From positions 1-64,000 of the forward strand of contig JANQJY010000049.1 in NCBI GenBank assembly GCA_028281385.1: a DNA stretch of 64,000 nucleotides, read 5' to 3'. The position numbers and the translations under genes were made by a program. Each line of letters begins with the position of its first letter. The stretch's first letter is position 1. Shown piece by piece: positions 45,469 through 55,256 of the stretch. The notes beneath the pieces were generated by a model. It saw only the letters and a list, made by a program, of their open reading frames with translations. It was not told where the DNA came from and did no database searches. The DNA comes from Rickettsiales bacterium (GTDB lineage: Bacteria; Pseudomonadota; Alphaproteobacteria; Rickettsiales; UBA3002).

Positions 45469-45514
45469 TGGCGTCCCCGAGAGGATTCGAACCTCCGACC
45501 CTCAGATTAGGAAT
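45469..45514 (-). pseudogene. 3' half of split tRNA-Arg(CCU) gene (attL side)
   Basis: Minus strand ATTCCTAATCTGAGGGTCGGAGGTTCGAATCCTCTCGGGGACGCCA: T-arm, acceptor 3' strand and CCA. Confidence 0.85.
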
Positions 45515-46602: not shown

Positions 46603-47139
46603 CTAAATATCGTGTTTGATCATAATTTCCCTCCTAATTTCTGCTGCTTCGTAAGATACACCAAAATCATCGCTGATTTCTTCTATGTCATGATACTCTC
46701 GCACCAATTTTGTTGGCATAAGTAGAAAGCTCGCGAACGTGTTTGCCTGCCATTCAGGATCTTTATATGCAGGCACTCGATCTGTTGTTGCCCTGTTTAA
46801 TGCTAGCCGTTCATCTGAATGAAGAATTAAGTGACCTATTTCATGCGTTAAAGTGTAACGATCACGGCCATTGCCAGCGCATGCCCCTTCGTACACATCT
46901 TCTCGTAGGCATATAGTGGGTTCTCCTACTATTTTTCTTCCTTCCTCTCCACGCATCTCCCGTTCAGTTAGTATGCGAAGGTGATAGCCTTCTATAACCT
47001 CTGGCAATACAAACTCTGCAATCTCAACAATCGGCAATCGTGGTTTCTCGCCTACAGGAAGCATTGAACGAAATCGCTCAGTGATCCCTGCTATCTTTGC
47101 ACGACTAAGAGGCAGTGCCTCTAGTGCTAATTTACTCAT
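46603..47139 (-). CDS. ImmA/IrrE family metallo-endopeptidase
   Basis: RYTLTHEIGHLILHSDE zinc motif HEXXH. Confidence 0.88.
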   Translation of the reverse strand: MSKLALEALPLSRAKIAGITERFRSMLPVGEKPRLPIVEIAEFVLPEVIEGYHLRILTEREMRGEEGRKIVGEPTICLREDVYEGACAGNGRDRYTLTHEIGHLILHSDERLALNRATTDRVPAYKDPEWQANTFASFLLMPTKLVREYHDIEEISDDFGVSYEAAEIRREIMIKHDI

Positions 47140-47494
47140 TTTCCTTTTCCTCCCCTCCCAGAATCGTCTTTATCGCATCAAGCTGTTCTGCATTTAATTT
47201 ATCAAACCCACGCGCGAGGGCTGCTATGCACTCTCCATCGTCAAGAGGATTGTGTTTAAGCATCGCCTCGTTTTTCGACATTAAGGCCTTATCTTCGAGT
47301 TTTACTTGCTGATCTTTTGATAATTTATAATGTTTCGTTATTTTCTTTATCAAGTCATCTGGGATGTCGCGCTTACCTGTTTCAATTGCGGATAGGTAAG
47401 ATGATGAAATGTTTGCTGCCTCAGCCATATCCTTTAGAAGAATACCCTCTTCTAATCGCAACCTTCGCAGCTCTTTTCCAAATTCAGTTAACAT
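47132..47494 (-). CDS. XRE family transcriptional regulator
   Basis: MLTEFGKELRRLRLEEGILLKDMAEAANISSSYLSAIETGKRDIP; overlaps the ImmA-like gene. Confidence 0.88.
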   Translation of the reverse strand: MLTEFGKELRRLRLEEGILLKDMAEAANISSSYLSAIETGKRDIPDDLIKKITKHYKLSKDQQVKLEDKALMSKNEAMLKHNPLDDGECIAALARGFDKLNAEQLDAIKTILGGEEKENE

Positions 47495-47654
47495 GGCAGT
47501 ACCTCCCTGATTTTGGATTACAGTAACACAAGCGCCACGGAAGATCAACAAAGATTGAAAAGAAATCAACAAATTTGTGGATCGCAAATTGTTTTCCTTG
47601 CTTTCTCAGAGAGATACGCAATAATTCTTCTTAGAAACAGAAGATTAGAACCCG

Positions 47655-48836
47655 ATGCCGACCATTAAAATTACCAAGCGTGAAGTAGATGCGATACCGT
47701 ATGCCGAATACGACAAGCAGCAATTCTATTGGGATACCGAGCTAAAGGGCTTTGGCCTGCGTGTCGGGCATAAATCCAAAACCTTTATCGTCCAGCGCGA
47801 CATAAATGGCAAAACCAAACGCACCACCATTGGTCGCTTTGACCCATGGACCGTCGAACAAGCGCGCACCGAAGCGCGGGAAATATTAATACAGATGGGC
47901 AAGGGCATCGATATTGCCGCAGAAAAGCGCAAAGCTGCCGCCCAGTCGATCACGCTGACAGAAGCATGGGCGTTGCATAAAGAAGCGATGAAACGGAAAA
48001 ATGCGTCGCCCAACACCATTGCCGATTATGACCGCGCAGTGAACACCCATCTGGCTAAATGGAAGAACCGCAACCTTGTCGATATTACGCGTGCAGAGGT
48101 AAAAGAAATGCACAGCACCATTGGCAAAACAGGTGGCTACGGCGCAAACGGTATTATGCGTTGCTTCCGTGCCATCTATAACACCGCGATGAAGGACAAT
48201 GAGTTTTTGCCACCCAACCCCTGCATCGCCATCCAGTGGTTTAAGGAATATCGCCGGCAGGAACCTATCTCTGATAATAAACTGAAAGATTGGTACAAGC
48301 TGGTGCAAACCATCCCTAACACTGCACGGCGTGACTACCACCTGTTTGTAATTTTTACTGGACTACGCCGTACCGATGCCTGCACCATCAAATGGGCAGA
48401 CATTGATATGAAGGCCGGAACATTGCATCGGCCTAATCCGAAGGGCGGTAAGGAACGTGCCTTTACCATTCCACTACCCGATGTGTGTTTAGAGATATTG
48501 GAGCGGAGAAAGGAAGAAAACGCCATTCTCTACGGTAAGCGCTGTCCGTGGGTATTCGCTACCACAAATCGCAATGGTGAAGTGATTGCCATGCGTGATC
48601 CCAAAGAAACCAAGCGTGGTCTGCCATCGTCACACCGATTGCGCGATACCTATACCACAGCCTGCAACAGCGCTGGCTTGTCGGCTTATGATATTGAGGT
48701 CCTGACCAACCATCGTCCCGCCAACAACAGTGTAACGGCTGGCTATATCAGCCAAAGCATTGACCATTTGCGAAAACAGCAGCAGAAAGTAGCCGATTAT
48801 TTGAAGGGGAAAATGGGCTGGAATAAAACGGTATAA
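47655..48836 (+). CDS. Tyrosine-type site-specific integrase
   Basis: DUF4102-like N-terminus (YYWDTELKGFGLRVGHKSKTFIVQ-like), LFVIFTGLRRTDACTIKWADID, SSHRLRDTYTTAC, GYIS Tyr region. Confidence 0.93.
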   Translation: MPTIKITKREVDAIPYAEYDKQQFYWDTELKGFGLRVGHKSKTFIVQRDINGKTKRTTIGRFDPWTVEQARTEAREILIQMGKGIDIAAEKRKAAAQSITLTEAWALHKEAMKRKNASPNTIADYDRAVNTHLAKWKNRNLVDITRAEVKEMHSTIGKTGGYGANGIMRCFRAIYNTAMKDNEFLPPNPCIAIQWFKEYRRQEPISDNKLKDWYKLVQTIPNTARRDYHLFVIFTGLRRTDACTIKWADIDMKAGTLHRPNPKGGKERAFTIPLPDVCLEILERRKEENAILYGKRCPWVFATTNRNGEVIAMRDPKETKRGLPSSHRLRDTYTTACNSAGLSAYDIEVLTNHRPANNSVTAGYISQSIDHLRKQQQKVADYLKGKMGWNKTV

Positions 48837-49179: not shown

Positions 49180-49467
49180 ATGTCTAAGATTAATGACAAC
49201 ATGGCTCATGTCATCGAGCAGTGTATAGATAATGCACTTAAAAAACTTTTCTCTCATGATTTTGCATACCCGGAATACTTTGACACTAAACGGGCTGCTG
49301 CCTACCTCGGCTTGAGCAAGCAACGGTTGGAAATATGGCGAGTTTCTGGAGATGGCCCCCCATACACTAAACTAGCCCAAGCCGTTCGCTACAAACGTAG
49401 CGACCTCGATGTGTTTATGGCCAAGCACCTCCGTAACAACACAACTGAGGGAGGGGCCAATGTCTAG
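49180..49467 (+). CDS. AlpA/excisionase-like helix-turn-helix protein
   Basis: DTKRAAAYLGLSKQRLEIWRVSGDGPPYTKLAQAVRYKRSDLDVFM. Confidence 0.85.
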   Translation: MSKINDNMAHVIEQCIDNALKKLFSHDFAYPEYFDTKRAAAYLGLSKQRLEIWRVSGDGPPYTKLAQAVRYKRSDLDVFMAKHLRNNTTEGGANV

Positions 49468-51676
49468 AGATATTATTGCCGATGCAAAAGCATACACCGA
49501 AGCCGGACTCTCTGTTTTTCCTCTACGAGAACGCAGTAAAGAACCGTTTGGCAAATGGAAAGAGTATGATGCTAAGGCCGATGATTACGGGAGCTTTAAT
49601 AGCGCTAGTAACATCGGCGTTAAATTAGGTGAGCCAAGTGGCGGCTTAATTGATATCGATTGTGACTGGGAGACTTTTAGTCTGCTGGCAAGTAAGTTTT
49701 TAGCACATTTGCCCAGTTTTGGTCGTGCATCCTCTCGCCACAGCCATCGTGTGTTTTTTGCCAATGAATCGGATAATTTTAAAACGGTGCAGTTAAAGCT
49801 CCCGTCTGTATGTAAAGATGACCCGCGGTTGCCTACCGAACACACTCTATGTGTGGCAGAATTTCGGGGGACAGGCGCTTACACCATGTTTCCGCGCTCG
49901 GTGCATCCTAACGGGGAAGAGCTAGCGTGGGAAACACCAGATGGTGCAATGCCGGAAATCCCCACTTTTGCATATGACGCTATTTTAAAGCATGTTCGTG
50001 TCTTGGCGTTTTTATCGGTTATACTGCAATGCTATCCGGGAAAAGGATCGCGTGATGAAATGCACTTTAAATTGGCTGGTGTTTTAGCGCGCGCAGGTGC
50101 CCCTTCCGATGAGATTGATCGCATTAACCTGACATTGGCTAAATTAGCGAAAGACGACGAAGCAGAAATGCGCGCTAAGGGACAAGATGCCGTTGCTCGC
50201 GTAAATGCGGGTGAGCCTGTGGCAAGTATGGCCTCGCTAATTGAAACGTTAGGCCTGCCTGATGCCTGCATCGCCTGCTTTAATGGCTGGCTTGGTATTT
50301 CGGGATCACATGACGATAAGGTGCGTGCACACCCCTCTATGCCATATCCTACTGCCGAACAATTTCGCCAAAGCAAATATCCCGATGCCATGCACCATAA
50401 CGGCAGTTATCTGGTCTATGATGGCGCAAGTTATCGGGAGTATGAGGATGATACCGTTAGGTCGACCCTGTATAAATATCTTGCGAAGGCCGTCTATGAG
50501 CATGACGGGGTCCTTGTACCGTACAATCCGAATGCAGCAAGGGTGAGTAATGTGATTGATTCGTTTAAAGGCATTATGCATCGCTCGACCGGATTATACC
50601 AGCCGCCATGCTGGCTCAAGAGCATGGAAGGTCTACCGCCTGCAAATGAGATCGTCGCCTGCCAGAATGGCTTGCTACATTTGCCTACAGGTGAATTGTT
50701 ACCGCCAACACCTAACTTTTTTACACGTAATGCGCTGGGATTTGATTATGACCCTGGTGCACCGCTACCAAAAAAGTTTAGAGCGTTTCTTGATGACATA
50801 TGGCCTAACGACAGCGATTCGATAGGCGTCTTGCAGGAAATGTTTGGTTATCTGCTGGTAGCAGATACATCGCAGCAGAAGATTTTTCTGATCGTTGGCC
50901 CCCCTAGATCGGGCAAAGGCACGTTAATTCGTGTTCTGACGAAACTTGTGGGCGAGCATAACACCGTGGCACCCAGTCTAAACTCGCTAAGTAGCGATTT
51001 TGGGATGCAAGGGCTGATCGGTAAGCTGATGGCAACGGTGAGCGATGTTCGCATTAGCAACAAAGCAAATGCCACAGCTATATCGGAAAATCTACTGCGC
51101 ATCTCCGGCGAAGATAAGGTCGAGGTAAATCGCAAATATAAGAACGCATGGGAGGGGTATCTGAAAGTGCGTTTTGTGATTATGACCAACGAAGTCCCAC
51201 AATTCGCCGATAACAGTGGTGCATTAGCCAAGCGGTTTGTACCGTTAGTGATGCGCCATAGCTTTTTCGGTAAAGAAAACCCAAACCTGACCAATGAGCT
51301 GCTTGAAGAATTGCCTGGAATCCTGAACTGGGCAATCGAGGGGTGGCGGCGATTAAATGAGCGTGGGCATTTTGTGGTGCCTGAGTCTGCCACTGAATTA
51401 GTCGATAGTTTGACGACACTGGCCTCGCCTATATCGGCATTTGTGGCTGAATGCTGCGAACAGGGAAGCGGCTATACTGTCCGAAAAGAGGCTTTATATG
51501 AGATTTGGTGTAAATGGTGTATAACAGAAGGCGATATGCGTCCCGGCACATCAGCCACCTTCGGTCGCAATTTGATGTCGCTGGGCGGTATCGACACCGA
51601 CCGCGAAACGGGTGGGGAAAGAAAGAACCTCTACACCGGCATTAAACTGAAGGATAATCCTTACGATGCGTCTTAA
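49460..51676 (+). CDS. Phage/plasmid primase-helicase, P4 alpha/bifunctional primase-polymerase type
   Basis: Prim-Pol GLSVFPLRERSKEPFGKWKEYD, GGLIDIDCDW; helicase FLIVGPPRSGKGTLIRVLTKL, RFVIMTNEVPQFADNSGALAKRFVPL. Confidence 0.92.
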   Translation: MSRDIIADAKAYTEAGLSVFPLRERSKEPFGKWKEYDAKADDYGSFNSASNIGVKLGEPSGGLIDIDCDWETFSLLASKFLAHLPSFGRASSRHSHRVFFANESDNFKTVQLKLPSVCKDDPRLPTEHTLCVAEFRGTGAYTMFPRSVHPNGEELAWETPDGAMPEIPTFAYDAILKHVRVLAFLSVILQCYPGKGSRDEMHFKLAGVLARAGAPSDEIDRINLTLAKLAKDDEAEMRAKGQDAVARVNAGEPVASMASLIETLGLPDACIACFNGWLGISGSHDDKVRAHPSMPYPTAEQFRQSKYPDAMHHNGSYLVYDGASYREYEDDTVRSTLYKYLAKAVYEHDGVLVPYNPNAARVSNVIDSFKGIMHRSTGLYQPPCWLKSMEGLPPANEIVACQNGLLHLPTGELLPPTPNFFTRNALGFDYDPGAPLPKKFRAFLDDIWPNDSDSIGVLQEMFGYLLVADTSQQKIFLIVGPPRSGKGTLIRVLTKLVGEHNTVAPSLNSLSSDFGMQGLIGKLMATVSDVRISNKANATAISENLLRISGEDKVEVNRKYKNAWEGYLKVRFVIMTNEVPQFADNSGALAKRFVPLVMRHSFFGKENPNLTNELLEELPGILNWAIEGWRRLNERGHFVVPESATELVDSLTTLASPISAFVAECCEQGSGYTVRKEALYEIWCKWCITEGDMRPGTSATFGRNLMSLGGIDTDRETGGERKNLYTGIKLKDNPYDAS

Positions 51677-52009: not shown

Positions 52010-52242
52010 ATGAGCGTATCTTTCTAGCTAGAGCTATCGAAGGTAGCTTTGGGGCTTCAAACCTCATCTGGGCGGCTGACATCAGCCGTAATGATGTCGC
52101 CTTTTCGACCTTATGGCCGGGAGGCGACAATGTATGTCCAATGCCTCGCGGCTAAAGATTGTCGCGATCATCCCAGATGATTTTGAACTCCCGGCTACCA
52201 GTCTTAGGGCTGGTGGTCGCTTGTTTAGATACGGAGAAAAGA
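52010..52242 (+). ncRNA. Structured leader candidate upstream of GIY-YIG gene
   Basis: GACATCA/TGATGTC (52078-52098), GTCGCC/GGCGAC (52096-52128), ACCAG/CTGGT (52197-52214). Confidence 0.35.
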
Positions 52243-53049
52243 ATGATCACGCTACAGGAAATACTGAATCTAAAAACTGACCGATTTCACAACGCTAAAG
52301 TAAAGCTAGTGCGACACAAAGACAGTCGCGCCGAATACCGCGATCTGATACGCAACAGGTCGGGACTCCTGGAATATCAACGAGAACAGGCCAAGGCGGT
52401 TTTTAAGGGGTGTAGCTACATTATCGCCTTTGTTGGGCTTGAGAGACGCCGCTCTGTCCTTTTCGGCGTGTTTTCTGTCGATGGCGTGACCCAACGCGAC
52501 GGTATGTATTATTATGACCTGACCCATCTGCCTGAATGCGCTGACCTTGAGAACCGCATCATAATTGATTGGGGTGGTAGTGCACAGGCATGGCACCAAT
52601 GGTATGATGCGCAATCGAAAGAGGTGGTTGAGATATTACCAGCGGGCTACCTCGGCAACTTTCCTGGGCTGCTGGATTTTGTGCTGGATTACGATGAATT
52701 GAAGCGGCTGATCGACAATCCCGAAGCGAACCATGATTGGAAGCATCACCTCTCTGCTGTTAACGGTATCTACCTGATCCTCGATACCCAAACCGGCATG
52801 CAGTATATCGGTTCTGCCAACGGTAAAGAAGGCATCTGGCAGCGCTGGGGCGAGTATGCAGCCAGCAAACATGGTGGCAATAAAGAGTTAATAGCATCGC
52901 TGGAGACTGACCCAAACTATCAGCGACACTTCCGCTATTCGATCCTGCAAACACTTCCCAGTAACATTACAAAAACCGAAATTGATAAGATCGAAAGCCT
53001 TTATAAAAAGAAATTTGGTTCCAAGGCACACGGGCTGAATAGGAATTAA
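52243..53049 (+). CDS. GIY-YIG nuclease family protein
   Basis: NGIYLILDTQTGMQYIGSANGKEGIWQRWGEYAASKHGGNKEL; ATG at 52243 after GGAGAAAAG. Confidence 0.88.
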   Translation: MITLQEILNLKTDRFHNAKVKLVRHKDSRAEYRDLIRNRSGLLEYQREQAKAVFKGCSYIIAFVGLERRRSVLFGVFSVDGVTQRDGMYYYDLTHLPECADLENRIIIDWGGSAQAWHQWYDAQSKEVVEILPAGYLGNFPGLLDFVLDYDELKRLIDNPEANHDWKHHLSAVNGIYLILDTQTGMQYIGSANGKEGIWQRWGEYAASKHGGNKELIASLETDPNYQRHFRYSILQTLPSNITKTEIDKIESLYKKKFGSKAHGLNRN

Positions 53050-53069: not shown

Positions 53070-53390
53070 TTAATAAGTGCCTGTAGCTTTGCGCGTATCT
53101 ATCTCTTCTGCAGCTATTTTAATTGCCTCATCAAAAACACTGTCTTCAATTGTATCGCCATCAAGTAGTGCATCAACAATTAAGCTCGCAAGTGATTCGC
53201 TTGTGATGGCTCGGTCATGGTCTAAAAAATAATCACCCGCAGCTTTACGCGCATTTATCTCTTCTGCAGCTATCTCAATAGCAAAACTAGCATCTTTGTT
53301 TTTCATCATATCAGCTTCTATAATTCTTTTAATTATCAAACTGGCCAGATTTTCGCTAGAAAGAGGCTTATTTTCTTGATCTTTACTCAT
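53070..53390 (-). CDS. Tandem-repeat small protein, putative immunity protein
   Basis: Two related ~43-aa units: SENLASLIIKRIIEADMMKNKDASFAIEIAAEEINARKAAGDY and SESLASLIVDALLDGDTIEDSVFDEAIKIAAEEIDTRKATGTY; overlaps toxin gene end by 8 nt. Confidence 0.6.
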   Translation of the reverse strand: MSKDQENKPLSSENLASLIIKRIIEADMMKNKDASFAIEIAAEEINARKAAGDYFLDHDRAITSESLASLIVDALLDGDTIEDSVFDEAIKIAAEEIDTRKATGTY

Positions 53391-54972
53391 AGTTCTTTCT
53401 CTGTTTTGGAAATTTTATTTTTCTATACGGCACGCCCTTAACATCTAGATCCACTGCGGGTTCTCCACTTTTTGATTTGGGGCGTTTGCCTACCCAATCA
53501 CCATTTGGCAAACGTTTTCCTTCACCTGGATAATTTTTAGGGGTATCTGGTTTGCCTCTTCCGAACTTGTCATATAGTTCGTCTGCTGCTTTCTGGCCAC
53601 CTTTTTCCTCTCGATATTCAGGACGCCTTCCCGGTCTTCCAATTGGTTTTCCACCCGGAATTATAACATCTTTTGGGTTTGGTGGTTTTCGGAAAATACT
53701 CCCCACTGCAACACCAATCCGCGCGATGCCTCCGACAACGATTCGTCCTAAGGCAGCGACACCGCCGATCAGTGCTTCCGGATAAACCGGTTCAGCGCGG
53801 CCAGATGGGTCGACCTCGCTCGGCAGGCGCGGTAGCTCTGTCAGTGGTTCAGCGTAACAGCGACAATTGAATTCTTCGCCCGGATGGCCGGTGGACGGCG
53901 GCTCATCCCACGCAAAAATTCTATCGTCATTCTCAGCATGACTGCCGCGGACTTTTTCATCATCCATCGACCGCCAGACATAATGCGTCACATCTGCTTC
54001 TCTTTGACGTATCTCACTCAGCTTACCGTTAAAGTGCAGCGCCAGCATTTCAACACGGTCGGGAATGGTCACATCCTGCCAAGTCTGTAACGCATCTTGC
54101 ATATGGTCCACTATTTGCTCACTGTTCCTACCTTGCCTGACGAGTTTATTTAGCTCTTTGTCGATAAATCTCCTTGTGCCGTTCTCGATGATATCAACCG
54201 CCAGATCGGTAAATGCATCGCTAGCTTCCGGCATGACTTCCGATTCGGAGACAATCGATTTATTCCCTAGTAACTGCCCTTGTATTTCGGCATTGATTTG
54301 CTGAATTTCCTCGGCGATGCGTCTGGCATTTTCTTTCAGAGGAAAGGCGATCTCGGGCAGCAGTTCTTCCGTCGTCATCTGGTCAAAACGCTGACGGATC
54401 GGTTGGACAATATAATCGGGCGTGTGAATGTCTGCTGTAGAGATGTTCAGGCTATTTAAAAGAGTTGCCTGCGCTTTTCGTCTGCGTTTGGCTTTATCGC
54501 GCAGCAATTCGTTATCCGTATCGGGAAGCGAGTTATGGAGAATTTCCCACAGCGCATCTTTCAGTTGCTGCTTTGCCAGTACGGTATCACCCTGGCGTTT
54601 TGCCTCAACATACGCATGTATATTGGCATAAAAATCGGTTGTTTCATCGACCAGCGCAGAATCTTCGTAATATAAAAACGCAATCGCCAATCGTTCATTG
54701 AGCAACAAATCATCCCAGATCGCGCCATACAACACCGTTTCTAGTTGGCCGTCATCGCTATCCAGTTCCTGTTTATACTGCTGCTTCTCAGTCGTTTTAG
54801 ACAAGTGCGTGCTGTGCGGCAGAAAACTGATGATTAGTTCATCACGCATCCGGTGGTAGGTTTGTATATCGTGTAATGATGTGCTGGGCTTAAGCTTGCG
54901 GGCCTCTGTCCGTAATTCCCGTATTTGTGTAACGTCATATCTCATGAACGAGAGGATACATTGGAGTTGCAA
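53383..54972 (-). CDS. MuF/SPP1 gp7-type phage head protein fused to polymorphic-toxin-like C-terminal domain
   Basis: MuF signature HYVWRSMDDEKVRGSHAENDDRIFAWDEPPSTGHPGEEFNCRCYAEP; C-terminus RLPNGDWVGKRPKSKSGEPAVDLDVKGVPYRKIKF after a Gly/Pro-rich linker. Confidence 0.75.
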   Translation of the reverse strand: MQLQCILSFMRYDVTQIRELRTEARKLKPSTSLHDIQTYHRMRDELIISFLPHSTHLSKTTEKQQYKQELDSDDGQLETVLYGAIWDDLLLNERLAIAFLYYEDSALVDETTDFYANIHAYVEAKRQGDTVLAKQQLKDALWEILHNSLPDTDNELLRDKAKRRRKAQATLLNSLNISTADIHTPDYIVQPIRQRFDQMTTEELLPEIAFPLKENARRIAEEIQQINAEIQGQLLGNKSIVSESEVMPEASDAFTDLAVDIIENGTRRFIDKELNKLVRQGRNSEQIVDHMQDALQTWQDVTIPDRVEMLALHFNGKLSEIRQREADVTHYVWRSMDDEKVRGSHAENDDRIFAWDEPPSTGHPGEEFNCRCYAEPLTELPRLPSEVDPSGRAEPVYPEALIGGVAALGRIVVGGIARIGVAVGSIFRKPPNPKDVIIPGGKPIGRPGRRPEYREEKGGQKAADELYDKFGRGKPDTPKNYPGEGKRLPNGDWVGKRPKSKSGEPAVDLDVKGVPYRKIKFPKQRKNYE

Positions 54973-55031: not shown

Positions 55032-55108
55032 TGGTGGTCCCGGCGGGATTCGAACCCACGGCTTCCAGATTAGGAATCTGGCACTCTATCCAGCTGAGTT
55101 ACGGGACC
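55032..55108 (-). tRNA. tRNA-Arg(CCU), intact with encoded CCA
   Basis: GGTCCCGTAACTCAGCTGGATAGAGTGCCAGATTCCTAATCTGGAAGCCGTGGGTTCGAATCCCGCCGGGACCACCA; cloverleaf pairs by eye. Confidence 0.95.
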
Positions 55109-55216: not shown

Positions 55217-55256
55217 ATTAGGAATCTGATGCTCTATCCTGCTGAGCTACGGGGAC
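55217..55256 (-). pseudogene. 5' half of split tRNA-Arg(CCU) gene (attR side)
   Basis: Minus strand GTCCCCGTAGCTCAGCAGGATAGAGCATCAGATTCCTAAT; acceptor and anticodon stems complement the half at 45469-45514. Confidence 0.88.

Follow-up and report, generated by a model that had tools for sequence, protein, structure and literature searches.

A predicted MuF-class polymorphic toxin with an undescribed C-terminal tip, and its putative immunity gene, on a capsid-less mobile element of a Rickettsiales bacterium

Introduction

MuF toxins have been reported mainly in Firmicutes (PMC5576092) and, in temperate phages, are composed of a MuF domain and a swappable C-terminal tip, with a small open reading frame (ORF) downstream (PMC5576092; PMC3482391). 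Nearly all MuF genes were located in prophages (PMC5576092), and a place in a prophage packaging module is a strong tendency (~96%; Jamet, 2017) without being strictly required. Here we describe a gene pair of this composition in a stretch of 64,000 nucleotides (hereafter the window) of contig JANQJY010000049.1 from a Rickettsiales bacterium, which very probably encodes a MuF-class polymorphic toxin and its immunity protein. In contrast to the MuF toxins of temperate phages, the gene in the window lies outside a prophage, with no portal or terminase gene near, in a host of Rickettsiales type, and its tip belongs to an undescribed family; its relatives, in turn, show cassette arrays and a link to the genes of gene transfer agents (GTAs).

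For the MuF toxin Bxa, both bacterial killing and neutralisation by neighbouring immunity proteins are documented (PMC11699363). Bxa and Apk2 share with the locus described here the fusion of MuF to a toxin and the adjacent immunity genes, with more than one immunity protein neutralising in their case; nevertheless, their tips are an ADP-ribosyltransferase and a (p)ppApp synthetase encoded in prophage head operons, whereas the tip in the window shows neither domain (PMC11699363). Exchangeable tip-immunity cassettes and orphan modules are also features of contact-dependent inhibition (CDI) and Rhs systems, including the rCRCT/A modules of Rickettsiales, an order in which toxin/antidote modules are known on other carriers (PMC11077975), and an RHS protein is among the carriers of the present tip. 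The carrier in the window is, however, a MuF protein and not a large secreted haemagglutinin or an RHS protein, and the text of PMC11077975 never mentions MuF. Open-access full texts, to which the literature search was confined (subscription papers being outside its scope), contained no paper linking GTAs with MuF or describing polymorphic toxins delivered by GTAs. What is new here is a MuF polymorphic toxin with an undescribed tip, carried by a capsid-less element, in a lineage in which such toxins associate with GTAs.

The Predicted MuF Toxin Gene and Its Domains

The gene pair comprises the following features:

53383–54945, minus strand: MuF toxin gene, 520 residues (ORF, with the start set by alignment to two relatives)
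54238–54945, minus strand: N-terminal module without known domain (residues 10–245 of the 529-residue frame)
53854–54165, minus strand: MuF domain (PF04233, SPP1 gp7-type), from profile matches
53407–53655, minus strand: C-terminal toxin tip of an undescribed family (residues 440–522), from homologue search and model
53070–53390, minus strand: predicted immunity gene, 106 residues in two fused units (residues 3–54 and 59–106), from its ATG start and family comparison

An initial annotation of the window had placed a MuF head protein with a toxin-like C-terminus at 53383–54972. This ORF is present on the minus strand, the peptides quoted in that annotation are its translation and the 3' bound holds. 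The frame is intact and, opened by a TTG codon, reaches position 54972 and comprises 529 residues. Since the two closest relatives both begin at a methionine aligned to residue 10 (ATG 54943–54945), this TTG is probably not the real start, and a product of 520 residues from the ATG at 54945 is predicted. The MuF signature, also claimed in the annotation, was recovered by both profiles: PF04233 covers residues 270–373 (E-value 7.1e-15) and the NCBI model TIGR01641 (SPP1 gp7-type) agrees with an E-value of 7.3e-14, above its cut-off. The N-terminal module is common to the proteins of two other genomes, G025 and G055 (E-value ~1e-71), with weaker similarity to proteins of G051 and G226. A linker connects the MuF domain to the tip.

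The C-Terminal Tip

The last ~100 residues of the toxin are matched in five of the 343 genomes of the order that were searched, this one included, and the matches in the other four (E-values from 1e-17 to 1e-44) exceed what we would expect by chance. The tip, of ~85 residues, recurs on other MuF proteins at 40–70% identity, and its alignment contains 22 invariant columns in six sequences and 14 in eight. The nearest relatives of the whole protein are 51–55% identical to it over residues 1–368, yet only 6–24% identical over the last 100 residues. In G036, a MuF toxin bearing a different tip is followed by a cassette with the window's tip, and the start of this cassette repeats 75 bases of the linker with 91% DNA identity; downstream copies compared with the MuF gene over 123–345 bases are 94% identical in G341 and 81% in G025. 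These downstream copies have the organisation of orphan cassettes as known from CDI and Rhs systems. In G077, the first cassette runs off the contig and cannot be called an orphan, and the second copy is broken, its immunity gene being intact.

The tip is also carried outside the order, where, in G460, it forms the C-terminus of an RHS protein (core TIGR03696, E-value 1.6e-21). It was not found in phage records, and a single plasmid record was retrieved at an E-value of 0.9 only. The modularity of the tip, its exchange between proteins and its pairing with immunity genes led us to reject a purely structural C-terminus. The proposal of the annotation that a polymorphic-toxin tip follows the MuF domain is, in fact, supported by the exchange of tips on a common front half, the orphan cassettes, the RHS carrier and the paired immunity family, and the genomic comparisons support a toxin family, so far undescribed, whose immunity partner is defined and whose toxicity we infer from genomics. 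The pair is well suited to a simple assay.

Another tip (GHTYVKIQKGNP...DNVRWQ...SLE[SA]HIP) is recurrent at four loci (L015, L019, L061 and L057), where it occurs in arrays with an immunity family of ~125 residues; it matched no named family.

The Predicted Immunity Gene

The predicted immunity gene starts within the last codons of the toxin gene, with an overlap of 8 bases that includes the toxin stop. Every readable tip in the order precedes a member of one family of ~55 residues, judged to be helical from its sequence, and the immunity protein in the window consists of two units of this family in a single chain. The small downstream ORF of MuF toxins (<150 residues) is thus represented here by an overlapping frame of 106 residues whose family is kept beside the tip, and both the overlap and the constancy of the family support the earlier proposal that 53070–53390 encodes the partner of the toxin. 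A lone member of the family, left out of profile building, was found at another MuF toxin locus, L031 (E-value 6e-17), placed as an orphan immunity gene would be. The tips of the G460 RHS protein and of G456 have other partners (102 and 126 residues, respectively), of which the one following the RHS-borne tip is unrelated to the immunity family of the window; differing partners for the same tip are usual for polymorphic toxins. Pfam matches of the immunity protein to neurotrophin and CPL were below the cut-off and were taken as noise.

Predicted Fold of the Tip

The second AlphaFold model of the tip (mean pLDDT 84.7, pTM 0.73) presents one helix followed by four strands. This is the order of elements that defines the BECR fold (Zhang, 2012; PMC3482391), whose toxins are seldom recognisable from sequence (PMC9086364). 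Foldseek searches with the tip gave nothing under an E-value of 0.1 in the PDB or among viral models, and the top rows of VIA-align were tied at Z 4–5, comprising glyoxalase-like chains and one toxin, CdiA-CT (5t86); therefore, no toxin class can be read from them. The tip resembles the BECR-fold tRNases and RNases (colicin E5/D, CdiA-CT) in its predicted helix and four strands, in size class and in having CdiA-CT among these tied weak fold matches, but it has no sequence similarity to them. Arg15, Tyr42, Arg58, Ser61, Asp69 and Lys79 (A3 numbering) are invariant in eight tip sequences and are candidate catalytic residues only. A BECR-type RNase is compatible with the model without being proven by it, and we give this assignment an even chance.

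The Mobile Element Carrying the Pair

The gene is no part of a prophage head operon; it sits instead in a 9.7-kb element integrated in a tRNA gene, with the following features:

45506–45514, no strand assigned: attL, left 9-bp repeat ATTAGGAAT, integration site
55217–55225, no strand assigned: attR, right 9-bp repeat, integration site
45469–45514, minus strand: 3' part of the interrupted host tRNA-Arg(CCT), from flank joining
55217–55256, minus strand: 5' part of the interrupted host tRNA-Arg(CCT), from flank joining
55032–55108, minus strand: intact tRNA-Arg(CCT) brought by the element
46603–47139, minus strand: ImmA/IrrE-type peptidase (capP-like), domain match and PADLOC
47132–47587, minus strand: helix-turn-helix repressor (capH-like), domain match and PADLOC
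47655–48836, plus strand: tyrosine integrase (PF13356 and PF00589)
49180–49467, plus strand: HTH_17 (AlpA/excisionase-like) regulator, domain match
49409–51676, plus strand: Prim-Pol/D5-type primase-helicase, domain match
52159–53049, plus strand: UzuA (Uzume defence) GIY-YIG protein, PADLOC E-value 4e-93

When the flanks are joined at the 9-bp repeat, a normal tRNA-Arg(CCT) of 77 nucleotides results; because an intact tRNA is restored in this way, the segment 45506–55225 was defined as an insertion of 9,711 bp. Among the ORFs of this element, none was recognised as a capsid, portal or terminase gene, and a prophage remnant was rejected, there being no packaging genes near. The element looks like a satellite: as in P4-like satellites, integration occurs at a tRNA, and an integrase, an AlpA-like regulator, a primase-helicase and a defence gene are present, whereas neither a capsid nor a terminase gene was recognised. 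It differs from P4-like satellites in having a MuF toxin, in splitting the tRNA and in bringing a whole replacement tRNA. None of the known P4 capsid-hijack genes was recognised in the element, although no search aimed at such genes was made. Both of the closest MuF relatives lie in the chromosome and outside elements of this kind.

The host tRNA-Arg(CCT) is split in the anticodon loop and is not rebuilt by the element, whose own complete tRNA-Arg(CCT) is only partly alike in sequence. The anti-phage defence gene uzuA adjoins the toxin pair.

MuF Toxins and Gene Transfer Agents in the Order

MuF is present in 58 of the 343 genomes. The genome of the window encodes a second MuF toxin beside tgt (L022 8186–9232, contig C105), whose tip is a Colicin_E5 RNase domain (E-value 3e-6, above the cut-off) and is followed by a small ORF; another named MuF tip in the order is Ntox44 (E-value 5e-14). 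Many of the MuF loci, read by eye, lie in housekeeping neighbourhoods with no packaging genes near, and in this the order departs from the described picture of MuF genes in prophages and Firmicutes. Phage-like MuF loci also occur (by eye, for example L056, L059, L062 and L063). MuF toxins have been portrayed as strictly phage-borne; here they are chromosomal or on a capsid-less element, in genomes where the GTA portal is often the sole one detected, and some of the toxin genes are embedded in GTA operons.

In the genome of the window (95.7% complete), one portal and one GTA_TIM gene were detected, both in an RcGTA-like cluster on contig C8. This cluster has no MuF gene, which argues against delivery by the GTA, as does the fact that, to our knowledge, MuF has not been described as part of RcGTA. 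Relatives show a different arrangement: a MuF toxin gene lies between g12 (DUF2460) and g13 (DUF2163) in G033 and directly after portal, protease and capsid in G341, and in G297 one with an Ntox44 tip immediately follows g15, each of these three genomes having one portal found. In G456, which belongs to another order, the gene of a protein with the tip of the window and no detected MuF closely precedes the GTA genes for terminase, portal, protease and capsid. In these clusters, identity of the main GTA proteins to those of this genome is 41–68%. In G041, a MuF toxin is ~1.6 kb from a lone g13. Because the insertion sites differ, the GTA-linked toxin genes seem to be separate arrivals. The MuF genes of G274 and G035, at 17–20 kb from GTA_TIM, were not counted as GTA-linked because the full MuF profile matched and they may belong to prophages. 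The toxin genes in or abutting GTA clusters occupy four different positions (L036 8345–9328, L057 3029–4177, L053 8159–8986 and L079 1–762).

GTA_TIM is found in 51 of the 58 MuF-positive genomes and in 177 of the other 285 (Fisher p 1e-4), an association that both phylogeny and genome reduction confound, and a Poisson estimate made for the genes embedded in GTA clusters is weak (~0.03 for three when 0.7 is assumed). Since the co-occurrence is confounded and the embedded count only weakly improbable, we advance with reserve, and short of an even chance, that GTAs in the order, and in one or more cases beyond it, may double as toxin-delivery particles, with exchangeable toxins, mostly fused to MuF, in their heads. 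If so, gene transfer by GTAs would be coupled to the killing of cells without the immunity gene, and elements like that in the window would compete to supply the toxin; GTAs would then serve as weapons in addition to transferring genes, a point that matters for the question of why they are kept.

Possible Mechanism and Alternative Explanations

We hypothesize that the MuF part would seat the protein in a tailed-phage-type head beside the portal, and that the particle would inject the toxin together with DNA. In a recipient without the immunity protein, RNA would then be damaged by the tip, for which a small BECR-type RNase is the most likely identity, whereas kin cells would be protected. The particle would not be encoded by the element and would have to be supplied by the host GTA or by a helper phage. 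Several observations weigh against the interpretation of the locus as a MuF toxin with its immunity gene: the tip has no match in Pfam, NCBIfam or PDB sequences, nor in PADLOC, its fold matches do not rise above noise (none with Z of 5 or more), and the portal and terminase genes that usually neighbour MuF toxins were not found by the gene, which could for this reason be a remnant no longer in use, in spite of an intact frame.

Delivery by the host's own GTA, in which the toxin would be loaded in GTA heads and injected with genomic DNA, is possible at somewhat less than an even chance. The sole portal found in the genome belongs to its GTA, and this route is favoured by the MuF toxins in or beside GTA genes in G033, G341 and G297, by the tip protein preceding the GTA terminase in G456 and by the co-occurrence of MuF with GTA_TIM, whereas the MuF-free GTA cluster of this genome, the housekeeping neighbourhoods of many MuF toxin genes and the limits of the co-occurrence and Poisson figures given above speak against it. 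We consider it rather unlikely that a helper phage is responsible, with the satellite element packaged by an incoming phage and arming the phage heads with its own MuF toxin: the gene set of the element resembles that of P4-like satellites and known MuF toxins have so far been phage-borne (PMC5576092), but a scan of IMG/VR for close relatives retrieved no related MuF protein, primase or integrase, the closest MuF relatives are chromosomal and no helper was found in the genome.

Alternatively, the pair could act within the cell that makes it, as a toxin-antitoxin or abortive-infection device by which the element, with UzuA alongside, is stabilised or protected. The adjoining uzuA gene, the capP/capH-like pair further off and a fused double immunity protein that could act as antitoxin are in agreement with this role, which is nevertheless improbable, as such a device would not need the long MuF-bearing front part, and many different tips with different immunity genes are the pattern of exported toxins. 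Proteobacterial MuF proteins often bear extensions of unknown function (PMC5576092), so that we also considered whether the protein is a structural component of a head whose C-terminal extension does no harm, or is what remains of a prophage; we regard this as very improbable given that the tip occurs on an RHS protein and in cassettes and is paired with immunity genes, the frame is intact and no remnant packaging genes surround it.

Additional MuF-Containing Loci

In several small genomes, the MuF domain is fused behind a LytM/M23-like peptidase (L041, L044 8545–9177 and L060 7354–8034), and L041 contains two or more such copies in close proximity. A viral pattern match, L073/L074, is a terminase GpA-like C-terminus and was taken as chance. 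Two loci of G226 (L070 and L071) encode tipless MuF proteins, each beside a similar protein of ~310 residues with a signal-like start, and one of the two detectably matches the N-terminal module of the toxin in the window.
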